Source: a virus
Virus record (IMG/VR): IMGVR_UViG_3300025872_000036
Span: 62,001 to 126,000 of that record
Direction: 5' to 3' (one strand)
Length of the DNA stretch: 64,000 nt
Both the position numbers and the translations under genes were made by a program. Positions 29,393 to 56,361 of this stretch are shown piece after piece (within the stretch, counting starts at the first letter, position 1; the number at the start of each line of letters is the position of its first letter). Under the pieces are notes generated by a model that saw nothing but the letters and a program-made list of their open reading frames with translations, was not told the DNA's origin and made no database searches.

Positions 29393-29589
29393 CTGAATTT
29401 GATCGCATCATGAACAAGATCTCGGATCGTCAGGATGGTCGCATCTATCAGATGTGGCGAGCATGGATGGTGATGCCCGAGCCTAGATTACAGTTCCATG
29501 AAATTATCTCCAGGGAGTTTGGTTTGTCATTGAATGAGGCCTACATACTGGTGAGGCACTTATTTCCTTCAAACAGGAGTGGTCAATGA
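29386..29589 (+). CDS. Small hypothetical protein
   Basis: 67 residues, helical (MWRAWMVMPEPRLQFHEII, FGLSLNEAYILVRHLFP). Its stop overlaps the ATG of pstS, so it is coupled to it. Confidence 0.5.
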   Translation: MVTEFDRIMNKISDRQDGRIYQMWRAWMVMPEPRLQFHEIISREFGLSLNEAYILVRHLFPSNRSGQ

Positions 29590-30533
29590 AAAAAATCATA
29601 ATCTCTACACTATCAGTTCTCTTTAGTGCGTCCGTTTACGCTCAAACATTAGATCCAAACTTGAAAGCATACTCATCGGTACCAGCTGTATCAGGAACCA
29701 TTAAGTCAATCGGTTCTGATACACTCAACAATCTGATGACACTTTGGGCTGAAGGTTTTAGAAAAGTTTATCCAAATGTTCAGATTGAAATTGAAGGAAA
29801 AGGTTCTTCTACTGCTCCACCAGCTCTCGTAGCAGGAACAGCTCAGTTTGGTCCAATGAGTCGCCTAATGAAAGGCGCTGAGATTGATGCATTTGAAAAG
29901 AAGTTTGGTTATAAGCCCACAGCTATCAATGTTTCCCTTGACAGTCTAGCTGTCTATGTTCACAAGGATAATCCAATCAAGTGCTTGACCCTTCAGCAAG
30001 TTGACGCCATCTTCTCCAAGAATCGTCGCGGCGGTTATGTAGGGGATATTACTAACTGGTCTCAAGTTGGTGTGACCAACGCAGGAGTCATGAGTATTTA
30101 TGGTAGAAACTCTGCATCTGGAACTTATGGGTTTTTCAAGGAAACCGCTCTATTCAATGGCGACTATAAGGATTCTGTAAAGGAACAGCCAGGAAGTTCT
30201 ACGGTGGTGCAAGGAGTTGCATCTGATAAAAACGGAATTGGCTATTCTGGTATTGGGTACAAGACTGCTGACGTTCGCGCAGTTCCAATTGCAAGCAAGC
30301 CAGGAAGCGAATGCTTTGAGGCAACCGAAGAAAACGTGCTGAGTGGCGACTATCCTCTAGCAAGATTCCTCGTTGTCTATGTAAACAAGAATCCAACCCA
30401 AAAGATGGATCCTCTGAGACTTGAATTCATCAAGTTCATTCTTTCTAAAGAGGGACAAGAAGTAAACATCAAGGACGGTTACTATCCAGTAACTTCTGCA
30501 ATAGTTGAAGATGAACTAAACAAAGTAAAGTGA
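29586..30533 (+). CDS. pstS: Phosphate-binding PstS (auxiliary metabolic gene)
   Basis: 315 residues. MKKIIISTLSVLFSASVYA is a Sec signal peptide, then SVPAVSGTIKSIGSDTLNN, ...GKGSSTAPPAL and ...SASGTYGFFKE: the Ser/Thr-rich loops of the phosphate pocket in PstS. This is the periplasmic high-affinity phosphate-binding protein of the host Pst ABC transporter; phage copies are expected to boost phosphate uptake during infection. It lacks its own visible promoter and is coupled by ATGA to 29386. It is host-like in length and layout, indicating acquisition from a bacterium. Confidence 0.9.
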   Translation: MKKIIISTLSVLFSASVYAQTLDPNLKAYSSVPAVSGTIKSIGSDTLNNLMTLWAEGFRKVYPNVQIEIEGKGSSTAPPALVAGTAQFGPMSRLMKGAEIDAFEKKFGYKPTAINVSLDSLAVYVHKDNPIKCLTLQQVDAIFSKNRRGGYVGDITNWSQVGVTNAGVMSIYGRNSASGTYGFFKETALFNGDYKDSVKEQPGSSTVVQGVASDKNGIGYSGIGYKTADVRAVPIASKPGSECFEATEENVLSGDYPLARFLVVYVNKNPTQKMDPLRLEFIKFILSKEGQEVNIKDGYYPVTSAIVEDELNKVK

Positions 30534-30841: not shown

Positions 30842-31396
30842 TCAGTCTGTTGGACGGATGTTCATTGAGATGTCTTGGCCAACCATGTGGCTTTTGAGCA
30901 TCCATCCAATTTTTGCATGTTTGTCGAGGCGATCTTCTAGGTAATTGACAAGACCGAAGTTACTATCTCTCTCGGCAAAACTTCTGGCAGCAATCAACGA
31001 ATCATGGGTTGAGGTGTTTGCAGCAAATAGACGAGCAAACATTGTTTTTGGGCCAGGCACTTCTGAAGAATCTGACATGGTCGACATCATTTCAAATTCC
31101 TTGAATGTGCCTGGTGCATAACTTCCCAATGCACGAATTTGTTCTGCTGTCTTGTCAATTTCTTCAAAGATCTGTTCATATAGTTTTCCAAAGAAATCGT
31201 GATATGATGAGAAGAAAGGACCCTCTACATTCCAATGATACTTGTGTGCAAGTAGATACATGCTGAATGTATTGGCTAGAACGACATGCATTGAACGGAC
31301 AAGATCTGATTTGCCCATGAATTGCTCATTGAGTTCTTGTTCCAACAAAAGTTCGGTGTTGTTTTCTTGTTCGTTCTGTTCTTCCATGATTGACAT
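30842..31396 (-). CDS. Dps/ferritin-like protein
   Basis: 184 residues. The ferroxidase-type pattern LAHKYHWNVEGPFFSSYHDFF (about 51-71; residues H/H/W and the Asp/Glu after it) and EIDKTAEQIRALGSYAPGTFKEF match the Dps family, which stores iron and protects DNA. It has an acidic N-terminal extension of about 25 residues, unusual for Dps. A TATAAATA late promoter lies upstream on this strand. Possible role in protecting phage or host DNA from iron-driven damage; inferred. Confidence 0.85.
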   Translation of the reverse strand: MSIMEEQNEQENNTELLLEQELNEQFMGKSDLVRSMHVVLANTFSMYLLAHKYHWNVEGPFFSSYHDFFGKLYEQIFEEIDKTAEQIRALGSYAPGTFKEFEMMSTMSDSSEVPGPKTMFARLFAANTSTHDSLIAARSFAERDSNFGLVNYLEDRLDKHAKIGWMLKSHMVGQDISMNIRPTD

Positions 31397-33642: not shown

Positions 33643-34341
33643 ATGTCAAAGAAAAAGAAGAGACTGCAAAACCAGCAACAGCAAAATCATTTCTCTCTAC
33701 GAACAATCTCTCCACTAACACTCAATCAATCATCAACATTCAAGGCCTTTGAGCAGGGCAAGCACCTTCTTCTACACGGCGTCGCAGGCACAGGCAAGAC
33801 ATATATCTCTCTCTATCTTGCACTAAACGAGGTGCTAAACAAATCAAGATACAAACAAATAGTCATCATACGAAGTGTCGTTCCATCACGCGACATGGGA
33901 TTTCTTCCAGGAACTGCAAAAGACAAAGCCAGAGTCTATGAAGATCCATACAAGATGATTTGCGATGATCTTTTCAGTCGTGGTGATGGATATGAGATTC
34001 TAAAGACCAAGAGACTTGTAGATTTCAATACGACATCATTCTTGCGCGGTGTTACATTCAATGATGCGATCATCATTGTTGACGAATGTCAGAACATGAT
34101 AGGTCAGGAATTGGATACTGTGATGACTCGCGTTGGAAACAACTGTCGTATTGTTTTCTGTGGTGACTTTAGGCAAACTGATTTGGCCAAGCATGAGGAA
34201 AAGCGAGGACTCTTGACATTCATGAATATTCTTGATAAAATGTCTTGTTTTGAAAAGATTGAGTTCGGAAAGGAAGACATTGTTCGTTCCGCACTTGTCA
34301 AATCATACATTATTTCCAAACTGGAGTTAGGATACGTTTGA
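33643..34341 (+). CDS. phoH: PhoH-like P-loop NTPase
   Basis: 232 residues from ATG 33643 (no close ribosome site). Walker A HGVAGTGKTYISL (about 46-58), VIIRSVVPSRDMGFLPG, and Walker B AIIIVDECQN (about 144-153) with DFRQTDL following: PhoH family ATPase, common in phages and linked to phosphate stress in bacteria. The biochemical role in phages is unsettled. A 100-base stretch upstream (33543-33642) holds no clear gene. Confidence 0.9.
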   Translation: MSKKKKRLQNQQQQNHFSLRTISPLTLNQSSTFKAFEQGKHLLLHGVAGTGKTYISLYLALNEVLNKSRYKQIVIIRSVVPSRDMGFLPGTAKDKARVYEDPYKMICDDLFSRGDGYEILKTKRLVDFNTTSFLRGVTFNDAIIIVDECQNMIGQELDTVMTRVGNNCRIVFCGDFRQTDLAKHEEKRGLLTFMNILDKMSCFEKIEFGKEDIVRSALVKSYIISKLELGYV

Positions 34342-34342
34342 T

Positions 34343-34504
34343 ATGTTGATTTATGCTGCGCCTTTGATCATTTGGATGATCATGCAATTAATGAGGACAA
34401 TCATGCTCACTTGGCCAAATGCATTCAATGCTTGGATGTGCGTCTTTACATATTTGGCAATTGGATTGATTTTCCTAAACTTCTTGTTTTCATTGGCACA
34501 GTAA
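34343..34504 (+). CDS. Small membrane protein
   Basis: 53 residues in two hydrophobic segments (MLIYAAPLIIWMIMQLM and CVFTYLAIGLIFLNFLFSLA). Starts 1 base after the PhoH stop and shares its stop with the next ATG (TAATG). Inner-membrane, unknown role. Confidence 0.55.
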   Translation: MLIYAAPLIIWMIMQLMRTIMLTWPNAFNAWMCVFTYLAIGLIFLNFLFSLAQ

Positions 34505-35157
34505 TGAAGAAGTTTCGTCATGCATTTGTGAATCTTCCGCAGTTGACGGAAGAATATATTGACGGAAGGAGACACTACAAGACTCCAGAAGGTAATGTGT
34601 ATCCTTCCGTCACTACCATTCTCTCGCGTCTACCAAACGAAAGTTTGCGTGAGTGGCAAAAGAGAGTTGGTGAAGAAGAAGTAAATCGTGTTTCCAAAGT
34701 ATCTGCTCGTCGTGGCACCAATCTTCATGAAATATGTGAGCGATATCTATTGAATGAAGAAAGACCGATGCGTGGACACATGCCGGATGTTCAAGGCATG
34801 TTTGTAGAATTGTGCAAGTATATTGATCGGATAGATGAGATTTATGCGATTGAAGCACAGTTGTATTGTGACACATATCAATTTGCCGGACGATGCGATG
34901 TCATTGGTACATTTGATGGGCATCCTGCAATCATGGACTTCAAGACTACGAAGTCTGAAGTTGATTCCAGCATGGATAAGGTCAAGAAGTATTTCATGCA
35001 GTTATCCGCATATTCTCTTGCGTTTGAGGAAAGAACTGGTCAGGAAATAAATCTTGGTGTGCTGTTGTTTGCATCCAATGAGACTGAACCTAGTTGCATT
35101 CAAGCGGACTTGACCAAGTACAAGATGGAATTTATTTCAGTTCTTGACAATCCCTAA
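34504..35157 (+). CDS. PD-(D/E)XK exonuclease (Cas4/RecB-like)
   Basis: 217 residues. The nuclease core is GRCDVIGTFDGHPAIMDFKTTK (about 136-157), Asp ... Asp-x-Lys, with a Glu in EAQLYCD before and QLSAYSLAFE after, the order of RecB-family nucleases. The head YPSVTTILSRLP fits the phage exonuclease family. Likely a DNA end-processing enzyme in recombination or replication. Coupled by TAATG to the membrane-protein gene. Confidence 0.85.
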   Translation: MKKFRHAFVNLPQLTEEYIDGRRHYKTPEGNVYPSVTTILSRLPNESLREWQKRVGEEEVNRVSKVSARRGTNLHEICERYLLNEERPMRGHMPDVQGMFVELCKYIDRIDEIYAIEAQLYCDTYQFAGRCDVIGTFDGHPAIMDFKTTKSEVDSSMDKVKKYFMQLSAYSLAFEERTGQEINLGVLLFASNETEPSCIQADLTKYKMEFISVLDNP

Positions 35158-35172
35158 ATATTAGATTATACT
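35144..35172 (+). promoter_or_regulatory. Sigma70-type promoter of the tmRNA
   Basis: TTGACA (35144-35149), 17-bp spacer, TATACT (35167-35172). The -35 is inside the nuclease gene end. CCCTAAATA (35153-35160), a late-like sequence, lies between. Confidence 0.85.
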
Positions 35173-35241
35173 ATGGATATTGCTGTTGATGACGACGCAA
35201 TAAGCAGGCTGGACCCGGCTTCAATGCCGGCATCTCCACCA

Positions 35242-35338
35242 GTAGATACAATGTGAGGGGCTAGTTGCATGGCACACGCGAACAGAGTGCAACCCATCAC
35301 ATAATAGTCGCGATAAAGGTGATGAGCATTGTATCTAC
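35242..35338 (+). repeat. Inverted repeat bounding the tmRNA spacer
   Basis: GTAGATACAATG directly after the encoded CCA is the exact reverse complement of CATTGTATCTAC, 4 bases before the 5' half. It would close the spacer into a stem that presents both ends of the split for processing. Confidence 0.85.
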
Positions 35339-35426
35339 TAATGGGGATGTAAGGGATCGACAGATGCGTAAAGGTTGTCGGAGGTAATCGGTAAGGAACG
35401 ACCGTCAATTAGTCCAAACAATAGAT

Positions 35427-35468
35427 GCAAACGATAATTACGCATCTGAGATGGCTCTAGCAGCCTGA
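35427..35468 (+). other. tmRNA tag reading frame
   Basis: GCA resume codon, then a 13-residue tag ending ALAA and a TGA stop. ANDN plus ALAA is the form of alphaproteobacterial tags, read by ClpXP-type proteases. Confidence 0.92.
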
Positions 35469-35535
35469 ACGGGGTTCGGTGGGGACCTGGCAACAGAATC
35501 CCACCACTTTCATAAATCGTAGAGGAGTAATCACG

Positions 35536-35718
35536 ATGACTGAAGTATCTTGCTATGTTATGCGACCATTGTCTTTCGCAACTGATAACGAATGCACCTA
35601 TAAGAATCTGCGTTCGGTCAATTTGAATCGTGCCAAGAAGCAGAAGAATGTCTATAAACTTTCTTATGGACAGTATGGCACGGAAAATTATGTTTGCTAT
35701 CTAGCAACACGCGACTAA
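35536..35718 (+). CDS. Small hypothetical protein
   Basis: 60 residues, GAGGAGTAATCACG upstream. TEVSCYVMRPLSF start and YGTENYVCYLATRD end. The upstream frame into the tmRNA is not coding. No family. Confidence 0.55.
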   Translation: MTEVSCYVMRPLSFATDNECTYKNLRSVNLNRAKKQKNVYKLSYGQYGTENYVCYLATRD

Positions 35719-35723
35719 TTACC

Positions 35724-36329
35724 ATGAAGAAACTACTGGCAATAGGATTAGTCCTATTGGCTAGCACTCTTGCTTTGAGACAGTATCCATACGATACTGC
35801 GCCAAAAGCCTATGCTCAATTACCCGACACAGACAAGGTTTATGAGTATAGACACGAACTTCCAGATCTTAGCGAGTATAAGCTGGAAGAGCCTGAGATC
35901 AAGATGGTATATGTTGATCCGAAGGAAAGAGAGTGTTTGGCTAAGGCGATATATTGGGAGGCTCGCAATCAGTCCCTTGATGGAAAGATTGCGGTTGGCT
36001 TTGTCGTGATCAATCGTGTCAATGCTGGTCTATGGCATGACAGCGTTTGCAAGGTCGTGTTTCAAGGTTGCCAGTTCTCTTGGGTTTGCACAGCAAATGC
36101 AAAGAAGAATCCTGCAAATAACAAGAACTACGACGAGCAGATTGCGTGGGCTGAATCAATTGCCCTTGCAAACGAGTTACTTTCAGAGTATAATGAAATT
36201 CAAGACGTTACATATGGTGCGGTTTTCTTTCATGCTCACTATGTGAGACCAGATTGGTCAAAGTGGAAGAAGGTTGAACGTACTGTGCGTATTGATGATC
36301 ATATCTTTTATCGTTTGAGGTCCATGTAA
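35724..36329 (+). CDS. SleB-type cell-wall hydrolase
   Basis: 201 residues. MKKLLAIGLVLLASTLALRQ looks like a signal peptide or anchor. The Hydrolase_2 (SleB) pattern ECLAKAIYWEARNQSLDGKIAVGFVVINRV (written in parts) includes the family Glu in YWEAR, and later FQGCQFSWVC and FHAHYVRPDW. These lytic transglycosylase-type enzymes cut peptidoglycan, so this may be a lysis or entry enzyme secreted by the host Sec system. Overlaps gp33 by 1 base. Confidence 0.85.
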   Translation: MKKLLAIGLVLLASTLALRQYPYDTAPKAYAQLPDTDKVYEYRHELPDLSEYKLEEPEIKMVYVDPKERECLAKAIYWEARNQSLDGKIAVGFVVINRVNAGLWHDSVCKVVFQGCQFSWVCTANAKKNPANNKNYDEQIAWAESIALANELLSEYNEIQDVTYGAVFFHAHYVRPDWSKWKKVERTVRIDDHIFYRLRSM

Positions 36330-36550
36330 TGCCCACTAAGGATGAAATGCTTTCCTTTGCCAAAAACATTGAAAGCATCGTGAAGGAAAAAGACCTAAAC
36401 TACATTGATGCCATCACGCATTTTTGTGAGGTCAATTCATTGGAGATTGAGTCTGTGACAAATCTCATCAATCAATCGCTCAAGGCCAAGATTGCATATG
36501 ATGCATCACAGCTCAATCTTCTTCCAAAGAGTAATACGCTTCCCGTATGA
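36329..36550 (+). CDS. 33: gp33-like late-transcription coactivator
   Basis: 73 residues: MLSFAKNIESIVKEKDLNYIDAI, then CEVNSLEIESVTNLI and LKAKIAYDASQLNLLPKSNTLPV, a pattern of T4 gp33 homologues in marine T4 phages. T4 gp33 links host RNA polymerase to the sliding clamp at late promoters. It fits with the ATAAATA sequences before the structural genes. Confidence 0.75.
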   Translation: MPTKDEMLSFAKNIESIVKEKDLNYIDAITHFCEVNSLEIESVTNLINQSLKAKIAYDASQLNLLPKSNTLPV

Positions 36551-37203
36551 AAATTGTTGCTATAGAAGCATACAAGTTATTTCAGGCGATCAGACTTCAC
36601 TTTGTTCGCAAGAGTTTCAACTACTTCAAGAGTGGTGGAAGCGTGAAAATAACCGAGAAAGCGTTTCTTGCCCGAAGGGACAAGTTTGCTTTCTATAGAT
36701 TGGCCAAGATGTATGATCGTGATACATTCATTGATTTGTCATTGTCAAATGTATTGTATAGTGTATCATATTCAAAGAACAATCAACTTGTTTTGAGAAC
36801 GAACAGTTCATTGTATTCGCTGGCTCTTCTTGAGCCAGAAGCAGAAGATATTTTGATTGAGTATCAAAAAAGATTTCAAGCATTGACATACAATTTCAAG
36901 CAGGACTTGAAAAAGATTTTAGATTGGGCGCATGATAATGAATGTACTGTGGATAGGATTCTTGATCCTGGTGATTCTTATCCTCCGCTCTTGACTATGG
37001 TGATGCAAGAGAATATTTCTTTGGAAACTCTTGTGATCATTAATGGTGTGATAAACTTTTTACCCATGTGGAATCGTCGCATCAAGGACGAAATCATATG
37101 GCCCGATTTTGCATTCAAATGCGAGAAGTATACTCCATTTGTTTTGCAGAGAATTGATTTGGAGAGCATGAAAAAGATCATCAAAAATGAACTTTGTTCT
37201 TGA
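36547..37203 (+). CDS. 59: gp59-like helicase loader
   Basis: 218 residues, ATGA overlap with gp33. AYKLFQAIRLHFVRKSFNYFKSG at the start and the WAHDNE... TMVMQENISLETLVIIN regions match T4 gp59, which loads the gp41 helicase on gp32-coated DNA. The next gene is gp32, as in T4. Confidence 0.8.
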   Translation: MKIVAIEAYKLFQAIRLHFVRKSFNYFKSGGSVKITEKAFLARRDKFAFYRLAKMYDRDTFIDLSLSNVLYSVSYSKNNQLVLRTNSSLYSLALLEPEAEDILIEYQKRFQALTYNFKQDLKKILDWAHDNECTVDRILDPGDSYPPLLTMVMQENISLETLVIINGVINFLPMWNRRIKDEIIWPDFAFKCEKYTPFVLQRIDLESMKKIIKNELCS

Positions 37204-37297: not shown

Positions 37298-38176
37298 ATG
37301 TCTACATTTGCAGCACTAAAGAAGTCCAGCGGTTCGATTGACAAGCTGGCACGCGAGTTAGAGAAACTCAACGCTCCCGCAACAAATTCTTCTGAAGATA
37401 CACGTTTTTGGAAGCCAGAACTTGATAAGGCTGGTAACGGCTTTGCGACCATTCGCTTTCTTCCTGCGCCAGCAGTTGATGGTGATGATGCGCTTCCTTG
37501 GGTTCGTATCTTTGATCATGGCTTCCAGGGTCCTGGCGGCTGGTACATTGAGAATTCGTTGACGACTCTGGGTCAGAAAGATCCTGTGTCTGAGCATAAC
37601 TCGGTTCTTTGGAATTCTGGTATTGAGGCTAACAAGGAGATTGCTCGCAAGCAGAAGCGTCGCTTGAAGTATATCGCCAACATTCTTGTCATTAGCGATA
37701 CGAAGAATCCAGACAACGAGGGCAAGGTATTCTTGTTCAAGTTTGGCAAGAAGATCTTTGACAAGATCACCGAAGCAATGAATCCTCAGTTTGATGACGA
37801 GAAGGCAACCAATCCTTTTGATTTCTGGGCTGGTGCAAACTTCAAGTTGAAGGTTCGTAAGTTTGAAGGTTATCCAAATTACGATAAGTCCGAGTTTGAG
37901 AAGTCTTCAGCACTTTATGATGGTGATGATGCGAAACTTGAGAAACTTTGGAAGATGGAATATTCACTCAAGGAATTCCTTGATCCGAAGAACTTCAAGA
38001 GTTATGACGAACTCAAGACCAAGTTGAATCGTGTTCTTGGTCTTGATGGTGCAGCGCCTGCACCAAAGACAAAGGCTTCAGATGAAAAGTCATCTTCAAA
38101 GGAGACTCCGCCTTGGAGTGGAGATGATGACGACGATGATATGAAGTTGTTTGAGAAGTTGGCTCGGGAAGACTGA
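37298..38176 (+). CDS. 32: gp32 single-stranded DNA-binding protein
   Basis: 292 residues. The N-terminal SGSIDKLARELEKL is the LAST-type cooperative motif region. Core WVRIFDHGFQGPGGWYIENSL and PVSEHNSVLWNSG is the T4 gp32 fold, but the Zn-ribbon cysteines of T4 are absent, as in cyanophage gp32. The C-terminus is highly acidic (DDDDDDMKLFEKLARED), the usual partner-binding tail. Strong terminator follows. Confidence 0.92.
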   Translation: MSTFAALKKSSGSIDKLARELEKLNAPATNSSEDTRFWKPELDKAGNGFATIRFLPAPAVDGDDALPWVRIFDHGFQGPGGWYIENSLTTLGQKDPVSEHNSVLWNSGIEANKEIARKQKRRLKYIANILVISDTKNPDNEGKVFLFKFGKKIFDKITEAMNPQFDDEKATNPFDFWAGANFKLKVRKFEGYPNYDKSEFEKSSALYDGDDAKLEKLWKMEYSLKEFLDPKNFKSYDELKTKLNRVLGLDGAAPAPKTKASDEKSSSKETPPWSGDDDDDDMKLFEKLARED

Positions 38177-47792: not shown

Positions 47793-48128
47793 ATGGCAGA
47801 GAATGATTTTGGTTTTAGCGCAGTAGATGAAGAGGAGTATCTGAAGTCATTGACGATACCACCAACTCCTATTGCACCTGCTGCAACTGAAGATGTAAAG
47901 AAACTTGAAGAAAAATTAGATAATCTTTTGTCTAAAGTAGATGTTGATGAACATAAACGTCTTGTTGAACTTGAGATAAGAGATAGATTAAAAAAGGTAG
48001 AAGAAATGATTTTACCTTTGTTAAATAATTTGGCAAAAAACCCAGAAAAAATATACATCAAATGGCCAAATCGTAAAGAAATTATAGAAAAGCAAATAGA
48101 AAAATTCTTACAAATAACCAGAGAATAA
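47793..48128 (+). CDS. Conserved T4-type virion protein
   Basis: 111 residues: acidic N-terminus, coiled-coil middle and KIYIKWPNRKEIIEKQIEKFL end, a conserved end in cyanophage-type phages next to the spike (recollection). Role unknown. Confidence 0.65.
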   Translation: MAENDFGFSAVDEEEYLKSLTIPPTPIAPAATEDVKKLEEKLDNLLSKVDVDEHKRLVELEIRDRLKKVEEMILPLLNNLAKNPEKIYIKWPNRKEIIEKQIEKFLQITRE

Positions 48129-48129
48129 T

Positions 48130-48420
48130 ATGCCGGCAGTAACATTACTATCAGATGTTTGTTCGGGACACGATTGCTATCCCTCAAGACAAAATGACAC
48201 AGCCAGTCCTGATGTTTTCATAGAAGGTCGTGGCATTCATCGTCAAACTGATCATTGGGCCAGTCATTGTTGTCCTAATCAAGGTTGTCACGATAGCATT
48301 TTGGCTATAGGTTCGACTTCAGTTTTCATAAACGGTCTCGGCTGCGGGCGTGTTGGAGATTTGATTGAGTGTGGTTCCATAGTTTCTACAGGAGCCATAA
48401 CTGTTTTTGCTGGCGGTTAA
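48130..48420 (+). CDS. PAAR spike-tip protein
   Basis: 96 residues. Cys/His-rich (CSGHDCYPSRQ, GIHRQTDHWASHCC) and the beta-strand repeat VFINGLGCGRVGDLI is the PAAR pattern of spike-tip proteins that bind a metal at the point. One base after the preceding gene. Confidence 0.85.
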   Translation: MPAVTLLSDVCSGHDCYPSRQNDTASPDVFIEGRGIHRQTDHWASHCCPNQGCHDSILAIGSTSVFINGLGCGRVGDLIECGSIVSTGAITVFAGG

Positions 48421-48441
48421 TAAAATTGAAAGAGGATAATA

Positions 48442-49200
48442 ATGACTGTAAATCCATCATCAACTTCACCAATCGCAATACCTGATCCATTTGCATATCC
48501 GGGAAATATTCCTGCAGGATCTATTGCGTCACCAACTCAAAAAAGTATTTTTGAAACTTTCGTCAATGAAGGTCGCGGTGGTATATTTCAAAACCCTCTT
48601 ACTGATGCCATAGGTGGATTGGGTGATAATTTAACTCAATTATATGATATTGTCAATAGTAGTTCATGCCTATCTTCCGGAGAAAAAACGACAATAACAA
48701 ATGCATTAGGAACAGGGGGTGTTGGTGGATTGTCTGAACAATTATCATTGTTTAGCACACATGTGCAAATACTTTCTGGTGTCATACCTCAAGGAACAAG
48801 TTCAACTCCCGGACTAGATAGAATTTTATCTGTTGGACGTTCACTTGGAAATCTATCTAATGCAATAGATGGAGTTTCGGACTGTTTTAGTTTACTTAAT
48901 AGCATGACAGGACTATTTTCCGAAGAACTACTAAATGGATATACGGGTGAAATTGCAAACATGATTGCTCAGGTCAATAATTGCTTGGCCGATGCTATTG
49001 CGATTGCAGATAGATTGAATGAAATAACCAATATTTTACAGTCAATTATAAATTCGGATAGAAACTTCTTTCAAAATTCTTTGGATAGATTAATTCAATC
49101 TTCACTATCGTCTCTATTAGAAAGCATGTATGACAATCCTTGTGGAAAAGTTCTTCTAGAGAGAATCGGACAAGATAAACTACTTGGATTTCTTAGATAA
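48442..49200 (+). CDS. Conserved virion protein
   Basis: 252 residues, AGAGGATAATA upstream. Helical with hydrophobic face, Ser/Asn-rich, ending DNPCGKVLLERIGQDKLLGFLR. Likely structural by place between PAAR and gp25. No named fold. Confidence 0.6.
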   Translation: MTVNPSSTSPIAIPDPFAYPGNIPAGSIASPTQKSIFETFVNEGRGGIFQNPLTDAIGGLGDNLTQLYDIVNSSSCLSSGEKTTITNALGTGGVGGLSEQLSLFSTHVQILSGVIPQGTSSTPGLDRILSVGRSLGNLSNAIDGVSDCFSLLNSMTGLFSEELLNGYTGEIANMIAQVNNCLADAIAIADRLNEITNILQSIINSDRNFFQNSLDRLIQSSLSSLLESMYDNPCGKVLLERIGQDKLLGFLR

Positions 49201-49203
49201 ATA
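49196..49203 (+). promoter_or_regulatory. Late promoter-like sequence for gp25
   Basis: GATAAATA at 49196-49203, 6 bases before the gp25 ATG. Confidence 0.4.
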
Positions 49204-49208
49204 AAATC

Positions 49209-49604
49209 ATGGCAATAAATTCAGTTAGAACGTTTAGAGATCTTGACTTAAATTTCACAAAACATCCGGCAACAAAGGATGTGGCTACTCGCGTGGGCGA
49301 TCAATCCGTCATCAGATCAATTAGAAACTTGTTATATCTGGGAAATTATGAAAAACCATTTCATCCAGAAATAGGAAGTTCTCTTCGCCAAATGTTGTTT
49401 GAAAATTTATCATCTTTGACCGCACAGCACATAAAGCAGGCAGTCAAAGATGTTATAAACAATTTTGAACCAAGAGCAAGATTGAGAGACGTTGTCGTTC
49501 AAGTTAAAGAAGATACGAATGCATATGAAGTTTCCATATCTTTTTATGTGATAAATCAAGCAACACCAATAGATATAACTGTATTTTTAGAAAGAGTAAG
49601 ATAA
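49209..49604 (+). CDS. 25: gp25 baseplate wedge
   Basis: 131 residues: MAINSVRTFRDLDLNFTKHP, VGDQSVIRSIRNLLYLGNYE and the SISFYVI strand are typical of T4 gp25, an EPR-motif-type wedge. Adjacent to gp6 with one base between. Confidence 0.85.
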   Translation: MAINSVRTFRDLDLNFTKHPATKDVATRVGDQSVIRSIRNLLYLGNYEKPFHPEIGSSLRQMLFENLSSLTAQHIKQAVKDVINNFEPRARLRDVVVQVKEDTNAYEVSISFYVINQATPIDITVFLERVR

Positions 49605-49605
49605 T

Positions 49606-51684
49606 ATGGCTGGATCTAACACAGTTTTTAGAATTGCTGAACTTGATTTTGATACCATCAAGTTAAATCTTAGAAACTATTTGCGTAGTCAAAACCAGTT
49701 TACAGATTACGATTTTGAAGGTTCAGGTTTGAACATTCTACTAGATGTTCTCGCATATAACACCCATTATATGGCCTACTATCTAAACATGATTGGGAAT
49801 GAAATGTTTTTAGATAGTGCAATACTAAGAAATTCTGTTGTTTCACACGCCAAACATTTGAACTACGTTCCTACGTCTCTTCGTGGTTCAGTTGCAAAAG
49901 TAGATGTTGTTGTTGAAGATACAAATCCAACCAGCGGCCTTTCTACAATTACTCTTCCAAAGTATTCACAATTTCAATCACAACAAATTAATGGTATAAA
50001 TTATACTTTTGTAAACTTAGATGCGTATATAGCAAGTAAAAATGTAACTTCAAATACATATACATTTAGTAACGTATCAATTGTCCAGGGTGAAAAAATT
50101 TCATATAATGTTTCTGTTGATGTATCAAACTCGAAAAGAAGGTTTTTGATACCCGAGGCAAACATTGATACGTCAACTCTTATTGTTACAGTGCAAAATT
50201 CTTCAGCTGATCTAGTAAAGACAACTTATAGTCTGGCTGATGATGTTACTACTTTAGATTCAAACTCAAAAGTTTATTTTTTGGAAGAATCTAATGGAAA
50301 TCAATATACGTTATATTTTGGAGATAACTATATTGGAAAAAACTTAGATGACGGGAATATTGTTCAACTGGTATATCTCTCAACAAGTGGAGAAGCATCA
50401 AATAAAGCCAACTCATTTACTTTGACAACACCAATCAATAGTTTTTCAAACGTTGTCGTGAATTCTATTTCTGCAGCAGCTGGTGGTGCCGAAAGAGACA
50501 CGATTGATAGAATCAAGTTTTTAGCACCAAGATTTTATACTACTCAAAACCGAGCAATTACAAAAGACGATTACGGAACTCTTTTGTTGAAAGATTATCC
50601 AAATGTTGAAACAATATCCGTTTGGGGTGGTGAGGAAAATGATCCCGTTGTTTATGGTAAAATTTTCATATCCATGAAACCAAGAAGTGGATATGTCATC
50701 ACCGACATTGAAAAAGACAGAATCATAAATCAATTGGTTTCAAATAGAAATGTAATTACAGTTACACCTGAAATAATAGATCCGGACTATCTGTATCTAA
50801 AATTAGAAATTACAGTAAATTATGATACAACAAAGACAACTTCAGATGAAACTACTTTGACAAACATTGTCAAAAATATTGTCAATTTGTACAACGATAC
50901 CGATCTTGAAAAGTTCAATTCAACATATAGAACTTCAAAATTGCAAGGTCAAATAGCATCAGGCGATGTATCATTTTTGGGAAGCGATTTGAAGACTATT
51001 ATTCAAAAAAGATTTGAGCCCACTTTAAATGTATCAAAAAATTATACTATTGATTTCAATGTACCCCTGAGTCGTGGACTTTACACCGAAAAACTATATT
51101 CTTATCCAACTTTTGCCATTCTAGATGGTCAGGGCATTTCAAGAAATGCACTCATAGAAGAAACACCATTATCATTTACTGGAGTTGAAAGTGTTGATAT
51201 AACAAACTCTGGTTCTGGTTATACTGATAGTCCTATAGTTACTGTAACAGGTGATGGATCTGGTGCAACCGCAAAAGCAGTAGTTGTAAATGGAAAAATA
51301 ACTTCAATCATGATTGAAAATCGCGGTTCAAATTATACAGCTGCTGTTATAACAATCACGGATTCAAGTGGGTCTGGTGCAACTGCAACCGCAGTTCTAT
51401 CTGTCTCTATAGGAACATTAAGAAGTTATTACATAGCATCTACAACAGGCGAAAAAGTTATAATAAATGAAAACTTTGGCGACATAAATTATGAGACAGG
51501 CAGAATAAACATCTATAATTTTAGACCACTATCTATTGCGTCAAATCCAAATTATGCATCTGGTGTACTAACTTTGAACATGTATCCCCTACAATCAACA
51601 ATACATCCTCTTAGAAATAGATTATTGTCAATAGATTCTGAAGATCCTACTGCCATTGAGGTTACAATGGAGATTGATACCTAA
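49606..51684 (+). CDS. 6: gp6 baseplate wedge
   Basis: 692 residues. RNYLRSQNQFTDYDFEGSGL, LLDVLAYNTHYMAYYLNMIGNEMFLDSA (in parts) and LAPRFYTTQNRAITKDDYGTLL are the gp6 signature. Between about 520 and 600 it holds one GSGYT...GDGSGATA repeat module also seen in gp7, gp8 and 61032. Stop and next start overlap by 1 base. Confidence 0.9.
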   Translation: MAGSNTVFRIAELDFDTIKLNLRNYLRSQNQFTDYDFEGSGLNILLDVLAYNTHYMAYYLNMIGNEMFLDSAILRNSVVSHAKHLNYVPTSLRGSVAKVDVVVEDTNPTSGLSTITLPKYSQFQSQQINGINYTFVNLDAYIASKNVTSNTYTFSNVSIVQGEKISYNVSVDVSNSKRRFLIPEANIDTSTLIVTVQNSSADLVKTTYSLADDVTTLDSNSKVYFLEESNGNQYTLYFGDNYIGKNLDDGNIVQLVYLSTSGEASNKANSFTLTTPINSFSNVVVNSISAAAGGAERDTIDRIKFLAPRFYTTQNRAITKDDYGTLLLKDYPNVETISVWGGEENDPVVYGKIFISMKPRSGYVITDIEKDRIINQLVSNRNVITVTPEIIDPDYLYLKLEITVNYDTTKTTSDETTLTNIVKNIVNLYNDTDLEKFNSTYRTSKLQGQIASGDVSFLGSDLKTIIQKRFEPTLNVSKNYTIDFNVPLSRGLYTEKLYSYPTFAILDGQGISRNALIEETPLSFTGVESVDITNSGSGYTDSPIVTVTGDGSGATAKAVVVNGKITSIMIENRGSNYTAAVITITDSSGSGATATAVLSVSIGTLRSYYIASTTGEKVIINENFGDINYETGRINIYNFRPLSIASNPNYASGVLTLNMYPLQSTIHPLRNRLLSIDSEDPTAIEVTMEIDT

Positions 51685-54600
51685 TGGCAACAAATAACAA
51701 GATCTCTACGGTAGTTAGTAATCAATTACCCGATTTTATAAAATCGGATCATCCTACATTTATTGCATTTGTAAAAGCGTATTATGAGTATTTGGAACAA
51801 TCAAATACAACTTTAGCATTTGGTAAAACAGTAGAACGCGCAAAAAATATTCCAAATTATTTTGATACCGACAAGATAACTGAAACTGGATTGAATGAAT
51901 TCAATGATCATTTGTACAACGAATTTATATCAGTCATACCCAAGGAAGCATTAACAGATAAGTCTAAACTATTAAAGAATATTAAGGACTTCTATCGCGC
52001 AAAAGGAACAGAAAAAGCATACGATTTTTTCTTTAGACTCCTATACAATGAAACGCCTGAAATATATTATCCAAAAAATGATATATTGATTGCATCTTCT
52101 GGCAAATGGCTTGTTGAAAGATCAATAAGACTTGCCAATACCTATGTCAATGGAATTTTAGACGAATCCATCGCTAGTTTAAAAAAGTTTGAAAGCACTC
52201 TAATAAGAGGAAATGTTTCTACAGCAACAGCACAAGTTGAAAGGGTTTCCATATCATACGAAGCGGGAACACGAATAAACGAATTCTTCATTTCAAAAAA
52301 GAAGGGCGATTTTTCTGCGGATGAAGAAGTTTTTACAACAACAATTGATGGTGAGACATTATCAGCAAAAATAGTTAGCGGATTTATTTCTTCTGTAACA
52401 TTGAAAAATGGCGGATCAGGTTATACTATCGGAACTTCAATACCTGTTGTTGGTGGTGGTGGATCTGATGGAACAGTAGTTGTTTCTGAAGTGTCATCTG
52501 GAAATATATCAAACGTTACAGTTGTCGTTGGTGGTGCTGGTTTTAGAGTTGGTGATTTTGTTTTGTTTTCTGGTGGCGGCGGCGTTGGTGCAAATGCAAA
52601 TGTCGTTGAAGTCTTTGATGATAATTTCACGCACCCGAACACATACAATATAAATTCCGACGTTATCAATACATATAACTTGACTGCAATTGGTGCATAT
52701 AGCAATTCATCTGGCGGAAATGCAAATACGTCAATGGCAAATACATTGACATTTTTTGCATATGCAAATACCGGTCCGGCAAGATCAATTGTCTTGATAT
52801 CTGGAGGAAATAACTATACTTCACTTCCAACTGCGTCAATACAAGGAAATACACGAATAAAGAATCTAGGTATTATTGGTAAATTGACAATCAATAATGG
52901 CGGAACTGGATATTCAAATGGTGCACAGTTAATATTTACAAATATTCCTGGTGGATTTGGATATGGCGCTAACGGTAATGTAGTAACGAATGCAACGGGC
53001 ACGATTGTAAATACAAACTTGACGCTTTTAGGTCCAGGTCATCTAATAGGTGGTGCTGGTTATGATATAAATTATCTACCGACAGTTTCTGTTTCTGGTT
53101 CTGGATCTGGGGCTAACATAGTTGTTTCTTCTCTTTTGGGATTTGGAGAAACTCTCGTATCTAATACAGGTTCAATTGGAGTTATTGAAGGACTTACAAT
53201 TACTAATCGAGGTTCAGGATATGCAACTCCACCAACTCTTGATTTTACAGGAAGTGGTGATGGTCTTGCAAATGCAAATGCTTCAGTTGTTTCTGGTACA
53301 TTCACTTACGCGGGTCGATTTAAGGACGATACGGGACTACTAAGCAGTTCAAATTATTTGGAAGATAGAGATTATTATCAAAACTTTAGTTATGTGATAA
53401 GAATTCGAAAAGCATTACAAGAATACAAGCAGCACGTTTTGAATTTCATTCATCCTGCAGGATTGAAGTTCTTTGGTGAATTTTTATACGAATCAGAACC
53501 AGTTGTTAATAATGTTGTTGTCATTGAGGATTCAAATACAAGAACATATATTCCATATGTTGCAAACTCGATTGATTTCAATGGTTCAAATTCTGTAATC
53601 TACAAGACATCATCTTTGGGCAATACAACAAATGGCTCAACGGGAACAATTAGTTTCTGGTTTAGACCCAATAGTCTTGCCAACGATCAAACGATTCTAT
53701 CGCTATCAAATACATCAAATTCAATGTATTCGCCAAGAGTTTCTGTATCTCTTGCAAAGAGAGCAAATTCTCTAGTTGGTAGAATTTCAGGATTGACTGT
53801 TGTTTATGGTGGTGCAGGATTCACAGTAGATGACAATGTGATCTTTACAGGAACTGGAACAAACGCAAATGCAACGATAGTTACTGTTCTTAGTGACGGG
53901 AGTTTTCATCCAAATACATATAATATCAATTCTGATGTTATCAATACATACAATGCAACTGTTATTGGTGCATATAGCAATGGTGCAAGCGGAAATGCAA
54001 ACACAGCACTTCTACCAACATTGACATTTTTTGCATTATCTGGTCTAGGTCCAATTTCAGCCGTTTCCCTAAACGCTCAAGGAAATGGTTATAATGTTTT
54101 GACAACGACGGTTAATGCTACAGGAAATACTTATCTAAGAAATCTTGGTATAATTGGTAGATTGAAGATCAATTCTACAGGTACAGGATATTCAAATGGT
54201 AATATTATCACATTTACCAATATTATTGGTGGTTATGGATTTGGTGCAAATGCAACTGTCACAGTAAATGCAACAGGTGCAATTATAGCAACTACGATGA
54301 CTCCATACTCAAGTGATTCGGGTCATCTAGTTGGTGGTTTTGGATATAGTACAGATGCATTACCTATCGTTGCTGTATCTGGTTCTGGTTCAGGTGCAAA
54401 TCTAACGATTGGTGCATTGATAGGAGATGGTGATATCATATCACCAGATACTTTTGCAAATACATCCAATAATGATGGTGATATTATCAAGATTGTTGCT
54501 AGAGATTCGACAAATACAAAGTTGCTTGAATTGACAACAAACACTTCAACCTTGATATTCAAGAATTCTTGGAATCACATAGTTGCAACTTGGGATCTAT

Positions 54601-55013
54601 CTTCAAATTCAAATTGTCATGTATACTTGAATGATATCAATTCAACGAGACTCGACACAATCAATTTCGGTGTAATTGACTATACGGGCGGAAGTAACGT
54701 TTCAATTGGTGCTGAAGTAGACTTGAGTCGTGCGTATGATGGTTGCTTGTCCGAAGTTTGGTTTTCAAATTCACATGTCAATGTTTCAAATGCTACGATA
54801 AGAAACTTCTTTATTGGAGCAAATGGTGATCTATTACCAAGTAATATGCTGCAGTCAAATGGATACATGGGTAGAGTGAGTGTAGAGGTCACTCCATCAA
54901 TCTATCTAAGAAGCAATGCACTTTATGCAAATATCAATAGCGGAATTGCAAATAACTTCACGTTTGCAAATAATATCACGGATTGCTCAAACTCCTCAAG
55001 TACTCCAGCATAA
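51684..55013 (+). CDS. 7: gp7-like giant wedge protein with split LamG domain
   Basis: 1109 residues. The N-terminal 170 (FIAFVKAYYEYLEQSN, KNIKDFYRAKGTEKAYDFFF) is the phage wedge type. Residues about 275-494 hold module copy 1 (ISNVTVVVGGAGFRVG to SSLLGFG), residues about 702-922 a second copy (ISGLTVVYGGAGFTVD). Copy 2 sits inside a LamG/concanavalin-like domain (about 629-701 SIDFNGSNSVIYKTSS...; 923-1050 SWNHIVATWDLSSNS, GCLSEVWFSN). The LamG part may bind glycans. Confidence 0.7.
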   Translation: MATNNKISTVVSNQLPDFIKSDHPTFIAFVKAYYEYLEQSNTTLAFGKTVERAKNIPNYFDTDKITETGLNEFNDHLYNEFISVIPKEALTDKSKLLKNIKDFYRAKGTEKAYDFFFRLLYNETPEIYYPKNDILIASSGKWLVERSIRLANTYVNGILDESIASLKKFESTLIRGNVSTATAQVERVSISYEAGTRINEFFISKKKGDFSADEEVFTTTIDGETLSAKIVSGFISSVTLKNGGSGYTIGTSIPVVGGGGSDGTVVVSEVSSGNISNVTVVVGGAGFRVGDFVLFSGGGGVGANANVVEVFDDNFTHPNTYNINSDVINTYNLTAIGAYSNSSGGNANTSMANTLTFFAYANTGPARSIVLISGGNNYTSLPTASIQGNTRIKNLGIIGKLTINNGGTGYSNGAQLIFTNIPGGFGYGANGNVVTNATGTIVNTNLTLLGPGHLIGGAGYDINYLPTVSVSGSGSGANIVVSSLLGFGETLVSNTGSIGVIEGLTITNRGSGYATPPTLDFTGSGDGLANANASVVSGTFTYAGRFKDDTGLLSSSNYLEDRDYYQNFSYVIRIRKALQEYKQHVLNFIHPAGLKFFGEFLYESEPVVNNVVVIEDSNTRTYIPYVANSIDFNGSNSVIYKTSSLGNTTNGSTGTISFWFRPNSLANDQTILSLSNTSNSMYSPRVSVSLAKRANSLVGRISGLTVVYGGAGFTVDDNVIFTGTGTNANATIVTVLSDGSFHPNTYNINSDVINTYNATVIGAYSNGASGNANTALLPTLTFFALSGLGPISAVSLNAQGNGYNVLTTTVNATGNTYLRNLGIIGRLKINSTGTGYSNGNIITFTNIIGGYGFGANATVTVNATGAIIATTMTPYSSDSGHLVGGFGYSTDALPIVAVSGSGSGANLTIGALIGDGDIISPDTFANTSNNDGDIIKIVARDSTNTKLLELTTNTSTLIFKNSWNHIVATWDLSSNSNCHVYLNDINSTRLDTINFGVIDYTGGSNVSIGAEVDLSRAYDGCLSEVWFSNSHVNVSNATIRNFFIGANGDLLPSNMLQSNGYMGRVSVEVTPSIYLRSNALYANINSGIANNFTFANNITDCSNSSSTPA
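52507..53165 (+). repeat. Intragenic module, copy 1
   Basis: Encodes GGAGFRVGDF, PNTYNINSDVINTYN, NLGIIGKLTINNGGTGYSNG and SVSGSGSGAN. All recur in order at 53788-54450. Confidence 0.75.
53788..54450 (+). repeat. Intragenic module, copy 2
   Basis: Encodes GGAGFTVDDN, PNTYNINSDVINTYN, NLGIIGRLKINSTGTGYSNG and AVSGSGSGAN; interrupts the LamG-like domain. Confidence 0.75.
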
Positions 55014-55016
55014 ATA
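55009..55016 (+). promoter_or_regulatory. Late promoter-like sequence for gp8
   Basis: CATAAATA at 55009-55016 just before gp8. Confidence 0.45.
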
Positions 55017-55038
55017 TGAGTTACAATAGAGTTTTTTA

Positions 55039-56361
55039 ATGACAGCCATAACAACAAGAAATTTAAGAATCAATTCAGCCGAGCAACTTCTAGAATCGGT
55101 CTCAGAACCTGCCGCAACGTATTTGTACGTTGCTTATGGCAAAAATACACCTTGGGCAAATGATTCTCTTCCCAATACAGCCGTAGATACGACAAGCGAC
55201 AGAGACGATGTCTGGAGAAACATTATTGGCGGAAAACGAGTTACAGGTAACGATATTACTCTTGCAATAAAAAGAGTTAATTGGACAACAAATACAGTAT
55301 ATCAAGCGTATGATGACACTTCAAGCACGCTTTATGATGCCAACACTCAATTTTATGTAATGACAGATGACTATAACATCTACAAGTGTCTATACAATAA
55401 TAATTCAGCAAACTCTACAGTAAAACCAACATATGTTCAAGCAAGTTTCTCAAGCACAGAAGCTGATGGATATATTTGGAAATACATGTACACCCTCAAT
55501 ACCAGAGATAGACAAAAATTTCTGACAAATGATTGGATGCCGGTTCGTACATTGACAATTGATGATGCATCACAACAGTATGCTGTCGAACAAGCTGCCG
55601 TTGATGGTGCAATAGATGTTATTCTTGTCACAAATGGCGGATCAAATTATACAAACACATCAAATGTTACGGTAACAATTTCTGGTGACGGTAGTGATGC
55701 GACAGCAGTTGCATATGTAAATACGATTAGTAACACGATTGCTAATGTCGTTGTAACTACAAGAGGAACAGGATACACAACCGCAAATGTTACTGTGTCT
55801 GGTGGCGGTGGATCAAATGCGTCACTTCGTGCTATAATTGGACCTCAAGGTGGACACGGAAAAGATCCTGTTTATGAATTGGGTGGCTCAAACATTCTTA
55901 TGAGCGTTAGAATTGATGGTGATGAAGATGGAGCATTGATTGCAAACAACGATTATAGACAAGTTAGTATAATCAAGGATCCATTGATATACAATTCATC
56001 AAATGCATTTACAAATACTGTATTTTCACAAACATTGACTTTGTCAATTGCCGGTTCTGGTCCTGATTATGTTTCAGACGAATATGTTTATCAGGGTGCG
56101 TCTCTCGATTCTGCAACGTTTAGTGCCCGAGTTCTTTCTTGGAATACTTCAACAAACATAATGAAGGTTACAGAATATACGGGAACACCAACAACAACCA
56201 CATTGAATGGGCAAGTTTCTGGCGGAAATCGTTTCATAACTTCCATTTCAAATCCAAACTTAAAAAATCGTTCTGGACAAGTCATATACATAGACAATAT
56301 AACACCAGTAACAAGAGTTGATGATCAAGCAGAAATAATGAAGATAGTCATAAAATACTAA
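55039..56361 (+). CDS. 8: gp8 baseplate wedge
   Basis: 440 residues. LYVAYGKNTPWANDSLPN, VWRNIIGGKRVTGND and DGYIWKYMYTLNTRDRQKFL are the T4 gp8 pattern. Around 190-275 it has an inserted GSNYT/GTGYT module shared with other baseplate proteins. Confidence 0.9.
   Translation: MTAITTRNLRINSAEQLLESVSEPAATYLYVAYGKNTPWANDSLPNTAVDTTSDRDDVWRNIIGGKRVTGNDITLAIKRVNWTTNTVYQAYDDTSSTLYDANTQFYVMTDDYNIYKCLYNNNSANSTVKPTYVQASFSSTEADGYIWKYMYTLNTRDRQKFLTNDWMPVRTLTIDDASQQYAVEQAAVDGAIDVILVTNGGSNYTNTSNVTVTISGDGSDATAVAYVNTISNTIANVVVTTRGTGYTTANVTVSGGGGSNASLRAIIGPQGGHGKDPVYELGGSNILMSVRIDGDEDGALIANNDYRQVSIIKDPLIYNSSNAFTNTVFSQTLTLSIAGSGPDYVSDEYVYQGASLDSATFSARVLSWNTSTNIMKVTEYTGTPTTTTLNGQVSGGNRFITSISNPNLKNRSGQVIYIDNITPVTRVDDQAEIMKIVIKY

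Follow-up and report, generated by a model that had tools for sequence, protein, structure and literature searches.

The 64,000-nucleotide stretch of DNA analyzed here (the window; bases 62001–126000 of a 196,948-base virus record) contains a circularly permuted tmRNA gene on its plus strand, at positions 35140–35508. We judge, with a probability of about 0.8, that this gene encodes a functional, alphaproteobacterial-type two-piece tmRNA of a T4-like phage, which would carry out ordinary trans-translation with host SmpB during infection as part of a phage-supplied set of translation RNAs. The locus is a new, well-supported example of the phage two-piece tmRNA already described, rather than a new kind of thing.

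A first-pass annotation of the DNA had proposed a phage-encoded permuted tmRNA at this site and had named a covariance-model search as the check; that proposal is borne out by covariance models and ARAGORN, and also by compensatory base changes and by synteny across independent contigs. Using cmscan, the alpha_tmRNA model matched 35140–35508 over its full length (model positions 1–355, with position 355 at 35508) and scored 127.1 bits, where the cut-off is 50, with an E-value of 2.7e-34. A scan with all Rfam models additionally matched tmRNA_permuted (model positions 1–213) to 35179–35468 on the plus strand; its score was 109.5 bits, the cut-off for this model being 47. The scores for 35140–35508 are far above chance level, and the families behind the identification, RF01849 (alpha_tmRNA) and RF04321, are those of alpha-type two-piece tmRNA. 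The 3′ end of the gene lies at about 35508; the end given by ARAGORN, 35559, is too far downstream. The parts of the gene and its neighbors are listed in Table 1.

Table 1 Parts of the permuted tmRNA gene and neighboring genes, in window coordinates.
Feature	Position	Strand	Basis
PhoH-like ATPase, conserved neighbor	33646–34341	+	PHROG 170, E 9e-79
PD-(D/E)XK exonuclease, upstream neighbor	34504–35157	+	PHROG 298, E 1.9e-59; Pfam PDDEXK_1
Sigma-70-type promoter: TTGACA 35144–35149, 17-nt spacer, TATACT 35167–35172	35144–35172	+	Sequence
Acceptor piece (3′ half of the tRNA-like domain), with the encoded CCA (35239–35241) at its end	35179–35241	+	Covariance-model alignment, cofold, compensatory changes
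T-stem with 6-nt loop	35215–35219/35226–35230	+	Covariance-model alignment
Acceptor 3′ strand CATCTCC, followed by A73 at 35238	35231–35237	+	Sequence
Intervening segment, 101 nt, expected to be removed	35242–35342	+	Sequence, cofold
Perfect 12-bp inverted repeat, GTAGATACAATG / CATTGTATCTAC	35242–35253/35327–35338		Sequence
Coding piece: acceptor 5′ strand GGGGATG (35343–35349), D-arm/P2 region, tag frame, 3′ hairpin	35343–35508	+	alpha_tmRNA model
Tag reading frame ANDNYASEMALAA, TGA stop at 35466–35468	35427–35468	+	ARAGORN
3′ hairpin, GGTGGGG (35478–35484)/TCCCACC (35499–35505) around conserved ACCTGGCAACAGAA	35478–35505	+	Covariance model, cofold, compensatory changes
60-aa ORF with no assigned function, just downstream, kept in relatives	35536–35718	+	
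Cell-wall hydrolase/endolysin-like	35724–36329	+	PHROG 938, E 1.2e-22
T4 gp33-like late-transcription coactivator	36329–36550	+	PF16805, E 2.1e-21
gp59-like helicase loader	36547–37203	+	
gp32-like ssDNA-binding protein	37298–38176	+	

The structural claims of the first-pass annotation were recovered in full. The 3′ half of the gene precedes the 5′ half, as can be read directly on the sequence from the encoded CCA and the later GGGGATG; this is the permuted order of alpha-type two-piece tmRNA. The two acceptor strands pair over 7 bp with a G-U at the third pair, and the perfect 12-bp inverted repeat is seen around the spacer, where cofolding has it prolong the acceptor stem in the precursor. 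The tag frame is intact, with a resume codon and a stop, and ARAGORN independently gives the tag as ANDNYASEMALAA. Pairing between and within both pieces is seen in the cofold and in compensatory changes in the acceptor stem, T-stem, and 3′ hairpin; the P2 pairing is weaker and includes some non-standard pairs in the covariance-model alignment. The T-arm (35215–35230) has a 6-nt loop and a C-G instead of a G-C as the last pair of its stem, both of which are common to the whole lineage. Both hexamers of the gene's own TTGACA/TATACT promoter were likewise found where they had been placed. Sigma-70-like matches number 14 in 4.8 kb versus 11.6 expected in shuffles, so the promoter match is weak by itself and draws its support from conservation in relatives.

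Orthologous loci were gathered by two scans of viral contigs. A tmRNA, scored by ARAGORN, blastn of the gene, or covariance model, lies behind the exonuclease in 23 of the 23 contigs whose exonuclease is at least 72% identical. ARAGORN overlooks many true orthologues that the covariance models detect (e.g., L045, L151, L166, and L184); it reported no tmRNA in two contigs whose exonuclease is 36% identical, one of which (L187) was also without a covariance-model match. Another gene is inserted between exonuclease and tmRNA in L045, L133/L172, and L086/L173, and homology restarts exactly at TTGACA; the promoter and the RNA thus act as one unit. TTGACA and a TATAMT −10 are retained in all 15 distinct relatives, despite the overlap of the box with the stop codon of the exonuclease. 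Across the 15 distinct versions, G3-U70 is invariant, and the tag amino acids are identical in 14, with synonymous changes only. The acceptor stem is paired in every cell of this comparison, with pair 5 switching from A-U to G-C; pair 1 of the T-stem switches from C-G to G-C, and the 3′ hairpin varies with compensation. The spacer stem has compensatory changes at 10 of its 12 positions, pairing being kept except at the innermost pair and in a few cells; these pair counts were made by a script that ignores kinship, and the changes are spread over several separate clades. Judged from its presence in all 23 contigs, its compensatory changes, and its kept promoter, the tmRNA gene is under selection and evolutionarily maintained.

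The same observations bear on whether the gene could be a passive copy of host ssrA, either an attachment-site relic or a transduced fragment with no phage function. Fragments of ssrA are frequent in integrative phages (PMC9004378, PMC12656738), but the gene in the window is complete and sits between core genes of replication and late transcription. All 23 close relatives have it, with compensatory changes and with the promoter preserved, and the 197-kb record yielded no tyrosine integrase. We consider a passive copy extremely improbable, and its attachment-site form was rejected on the complete gene, the conserved covariation, and the lack of an integrase in the record. Searches outside the lineage returned little: a DNA search for close homologues in named phages gave only a weak match to a Streptomyces phage tmRNA, and a degenerate tag scan covering 84,980 genomes of bacteria and archaea (stops TAA or TGA only) gave a single match, L122 (JAFMJQ010000169.1). 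This contig belongs to the same phage lineage and is binned in a Thermoleophilia MAG, apparently as a misbinned phage contig.

The baseplate protein is nearest to those of Pelagibacter phages Mosig and HTVC008M and Methylophilales phage Melnitz, with 40–43% identity, and this affinity, together with the neighboring genes (Table 1), identifies a T4-like phage of the marine or aquatic kind. Between them, the 33 tRNA genes of the record serve all 20 amino acids, and 32 tRNAs are above the Rfam cut-off; the genes form an array at record bases 47901–55875 (L195:7902–15875), upstream of and outside the window. Because these tRNAs share a record with the tmRNA, we view the latter as a probable member of a phage-supplied set of translation RNAs. 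SmpB was not found in the 197-kb record, and a compatible host SmpB would therefore be required. The phage also encodes a PstS-like periplasmic phosphate-binding protein (window 29586–30533) and a ferritin/Dps-like protein (window 30842–31396).

Phage two-piece tmRNAs were published in 2022 together with Melnitz (MZ577097; PMC9004378), which is the closest parallel to the window: in both, the tmRNA is permuted and of alpha type, its tag is intact, and an inverted repeat flanks its spacer. In Melnitz the gene occupies the T4-like slot phoH–PDDEXK nuclease–tmRNA–gp33–gp59–gp32, and the window tmRNA lies within the same phoH-exonuclease/gp33-gp59-gp32 interval that marks Melnitz-type ssrA, with two extra genes between tmRNA and gp33. 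The Melnitz tmRNA scores 106.7 and 113.4 bits with the covariance models; its tag is ANDNYVPVDYALAA in place of ANDNYASEMALAA, and its spacer is 142 nt with a 9-bp repeat, compared with 101 nt and 12 bp. Melnitz further carries a glutamine riboswitch directly downstream of the tmRNA, whereas the window yielded no match to this riboswitch up to an E-value of 1 in 34950–35750 (Melnitz positive control, 52.8 bits). A riboswitch in or after the gene was accordingly rejected for that interval; the element has been described as common 3′ of Melnitz-type ssrA, not as defining it.

With the alphaproteobacterial two-piece tmRNA (RF01849), the window shares the gene order, G3-U70 acceptor, T-arm, D-arm motif, resume region, and terminal hairpin with ACCTGGCAACAGAA. 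Four plasmid-borne alphaproteobacterial ssrA genes (L201–L204) score 259–310 bits, whereas the phage lineage scores 84–133 and the window 127. The T-loop of the lineage has 6 nt instead of 7. In the bacterial copies the tag stop is separated from the terminal CGGGG element by 45–48 nt, as measured by eye (the 29–31 nt returned by a script for two copies reflects an early pattern match), whereas in the window the distance is 1 nt. The distal helix segment that lies in this interval in the four bacterial copies is absent from the window; it varies within the family, and we did not count it as decisive. This distance is below 20 nt in 59 of 60 measured phage-contig copies, and we regard the RNA, shorter by ~40 nt, as a probable pared-down form common in phages. 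Given the shorter RNA and the lower covariance-model scores, its efficiency could be reduced.

An RNA trimmed in this way might instead compete with host tmRNA, taking up SmpB and AlaRS and so blunting or re-routing host ribosome rescue in place of full trans-translation. Such a role fits the ~40 nt of 3′ region that the four bacterial versions have and the phage RNA does not, and it has a precedent in a tRNA-like-domain-only molecule, akin to that of mycobacteriophage DS6A, which is a strong inhibitor of tmRNA and may act by titrating SmpB (PMC4131195). A pure decoy needs no tag, however, and in this lineage the tag frame and its stop persist, while 14 of 15 versions encode the same tag amino acids, any differences among them being synonymous. 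The conservation of the tag thus disfavors a decoy, a role we find distinctly improbable next to ordinary trans-translation.

The first-pass annotation also considered it unusual for a phage to have a permuted copy whose tag is intact, a view that we could not sustain: 53 two-piece phage tmRNAs had been published (PMC9004378), and IMG/VR contigs yielded about 70 further distinct ones. In the published survey, tmRNA was present in 402 of 18,146 phages, and 50 of the 53 two-piece forms, which were called by ARAGORN, came from marine or aquatic samples (PMC9004378); a tmRNA database from 2025 has entries for 79 unique phage sequences (PMC11915505). Our comparison set comprised 78 distinct permuted tmRNAs from viral contigs and named phages, and some of the contigs may be host DNA or prophages. 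Of the 45 copies whose spacer is 40 nt or longer, 41 had a stem of at least 7 bp that starts at or 1–2 bases from the CCA and ends about 4 bases before GGGG, while the best stem anywhere in a random pair of 30-mers is about 6. The inverted repeat around the spacer is therefore the usual precursor architecture.

Among named phages, permuted alpha-type tmRNAs above the Rfam cut-off were found in Roseobacter phage DSS3P8 (L205:2447–2833), Mesorhizobium phage Cp1R7A-A1 (L206:2299–2684), and Rhodobacter phage RcSimone-Hastad (L207:1437–1827); all three are absent from the annotations of these phages' records, and their tags and gene neighborhoods are unlike those of the window. DSS3P8 also has a GOLLD RNA (L205:1843–2276). 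The Bxz1 group of mycobacteriophages carries a tmRNA alongside a large tRNA set, and mycobacteriophage tmRNAs have the standard one-piece gene form. Bxz1 and Wildcat resemble the window in placing a tmRNA in a lytic phage (PMC4131195, PMC7474061), and very high expression has been shown for the Wildcat tmRNA (PMC4131195, PMC7474061), but these phages and their hosts are unrelated to those of the window.

The tags of phage tmRNAs are diverse, with about 40 kinds. One of them, ANDNYAPEMALAA, occurs in 21 distinct phage tmRNAs (e.g., L020, L063, L105, and L145) whose acceptor stems and spacers differ, a pattern that points to tags having converged or been shared. In L014, L025, L042, L083, and L096, the predicted tags are unusually long and have an ALGFADLTV motif in common, but the ARAGORN frame may be off there.

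A further departure was seen in a sister phage, L186, which belongs to the same lineage (exonuclease 80% identical) and carries a mosaic tmRNA (L186:3273–4127, including an endonuclease region). Up to GTCCAAAACAAT this tmRNA is lineage-like, with 75.6% identity to L122; its tag, AANDNAPFEIALAA, and its 3′ domain match the tmRNAs of two otherwise unrelated contigs, L209 and L211 (~79%). Directly downstream, on the other strand, is a gene for a 174-aa homing endonuclease (PHROG 655, E 2.6e-12) that the sister loci do not have. This one locus suggests gene conversion linked to homing. More tentatively, we can picture a T4-like lineage with complete, self-supplied translation RNAs (tRNAs for 20 amino acids and, with them, a two-piece tmRNA in pared-down form), in which the tag module may be exchanged between unrelated phages by homing-endonuclease-linked recombination, tags being swapped as units to suit host or protease.

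The variety of tags, and the exchange of tag and 3′ module in L186 with the rest of the RNA kept, would also fit a phage tmRNA that replaced that of the host to attach the phage's own tag, so that certain proteins, of phage or of host, were spared or selectively degraded; a proposal that host proteins are tagged selectively has been made (PMC9004378). Most tags nevertheless still end in ALAA, RLAA, or AMAA, consistent with ordinary protease recognition, and tmRNA works on stalled ribosomes, with no known means to select host messages. We hold this replacement to be unlikely, though less so than competition with host tmRNA, and prefer ordinary trans-translation.

Trans-translation itself is established: precursor cutting, charging by AlaRS via G3-U70, binding of SmpB, and the tagging and release of stalled chains. 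In the window, the gene's own promoter would give a single precursor transcript, in which the acceptor stem and 12-bp repeat would present the spacer to host tRNA-processing enzymes for excision. Two base-paired products would remain, an acceptor piece of ~63 nt with CCA at its end and a coding piece of ~165 nt. Host AlaRS would charge this tmRNA via G3-U70, and host SmpB would bring it to stalled ribosomes, where ANDNYASEMALAA would be added to nascent chains. The LAA-like end of the tag would direct these chains to degradation by host proteases such as ClpXP, and the freed ribosomes would be recycled for phage translation. Together, the tmRNA and the tRNAs may keep decoding and rescue running while host RNAs decay.

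The covariation and synteny indicate that a phage-borne two-piece tmRNA is kept by selection as a working RNA in this lineage and is not merely carried. The tag swap in L186 offers a natural experiment on the tag's purpose. Taken with the tRNA set for 20 amino acids, the tmRNA also makes it a testable proposition that some lytic phages bring along RNAs of their own for decoding and ribosome rescue.
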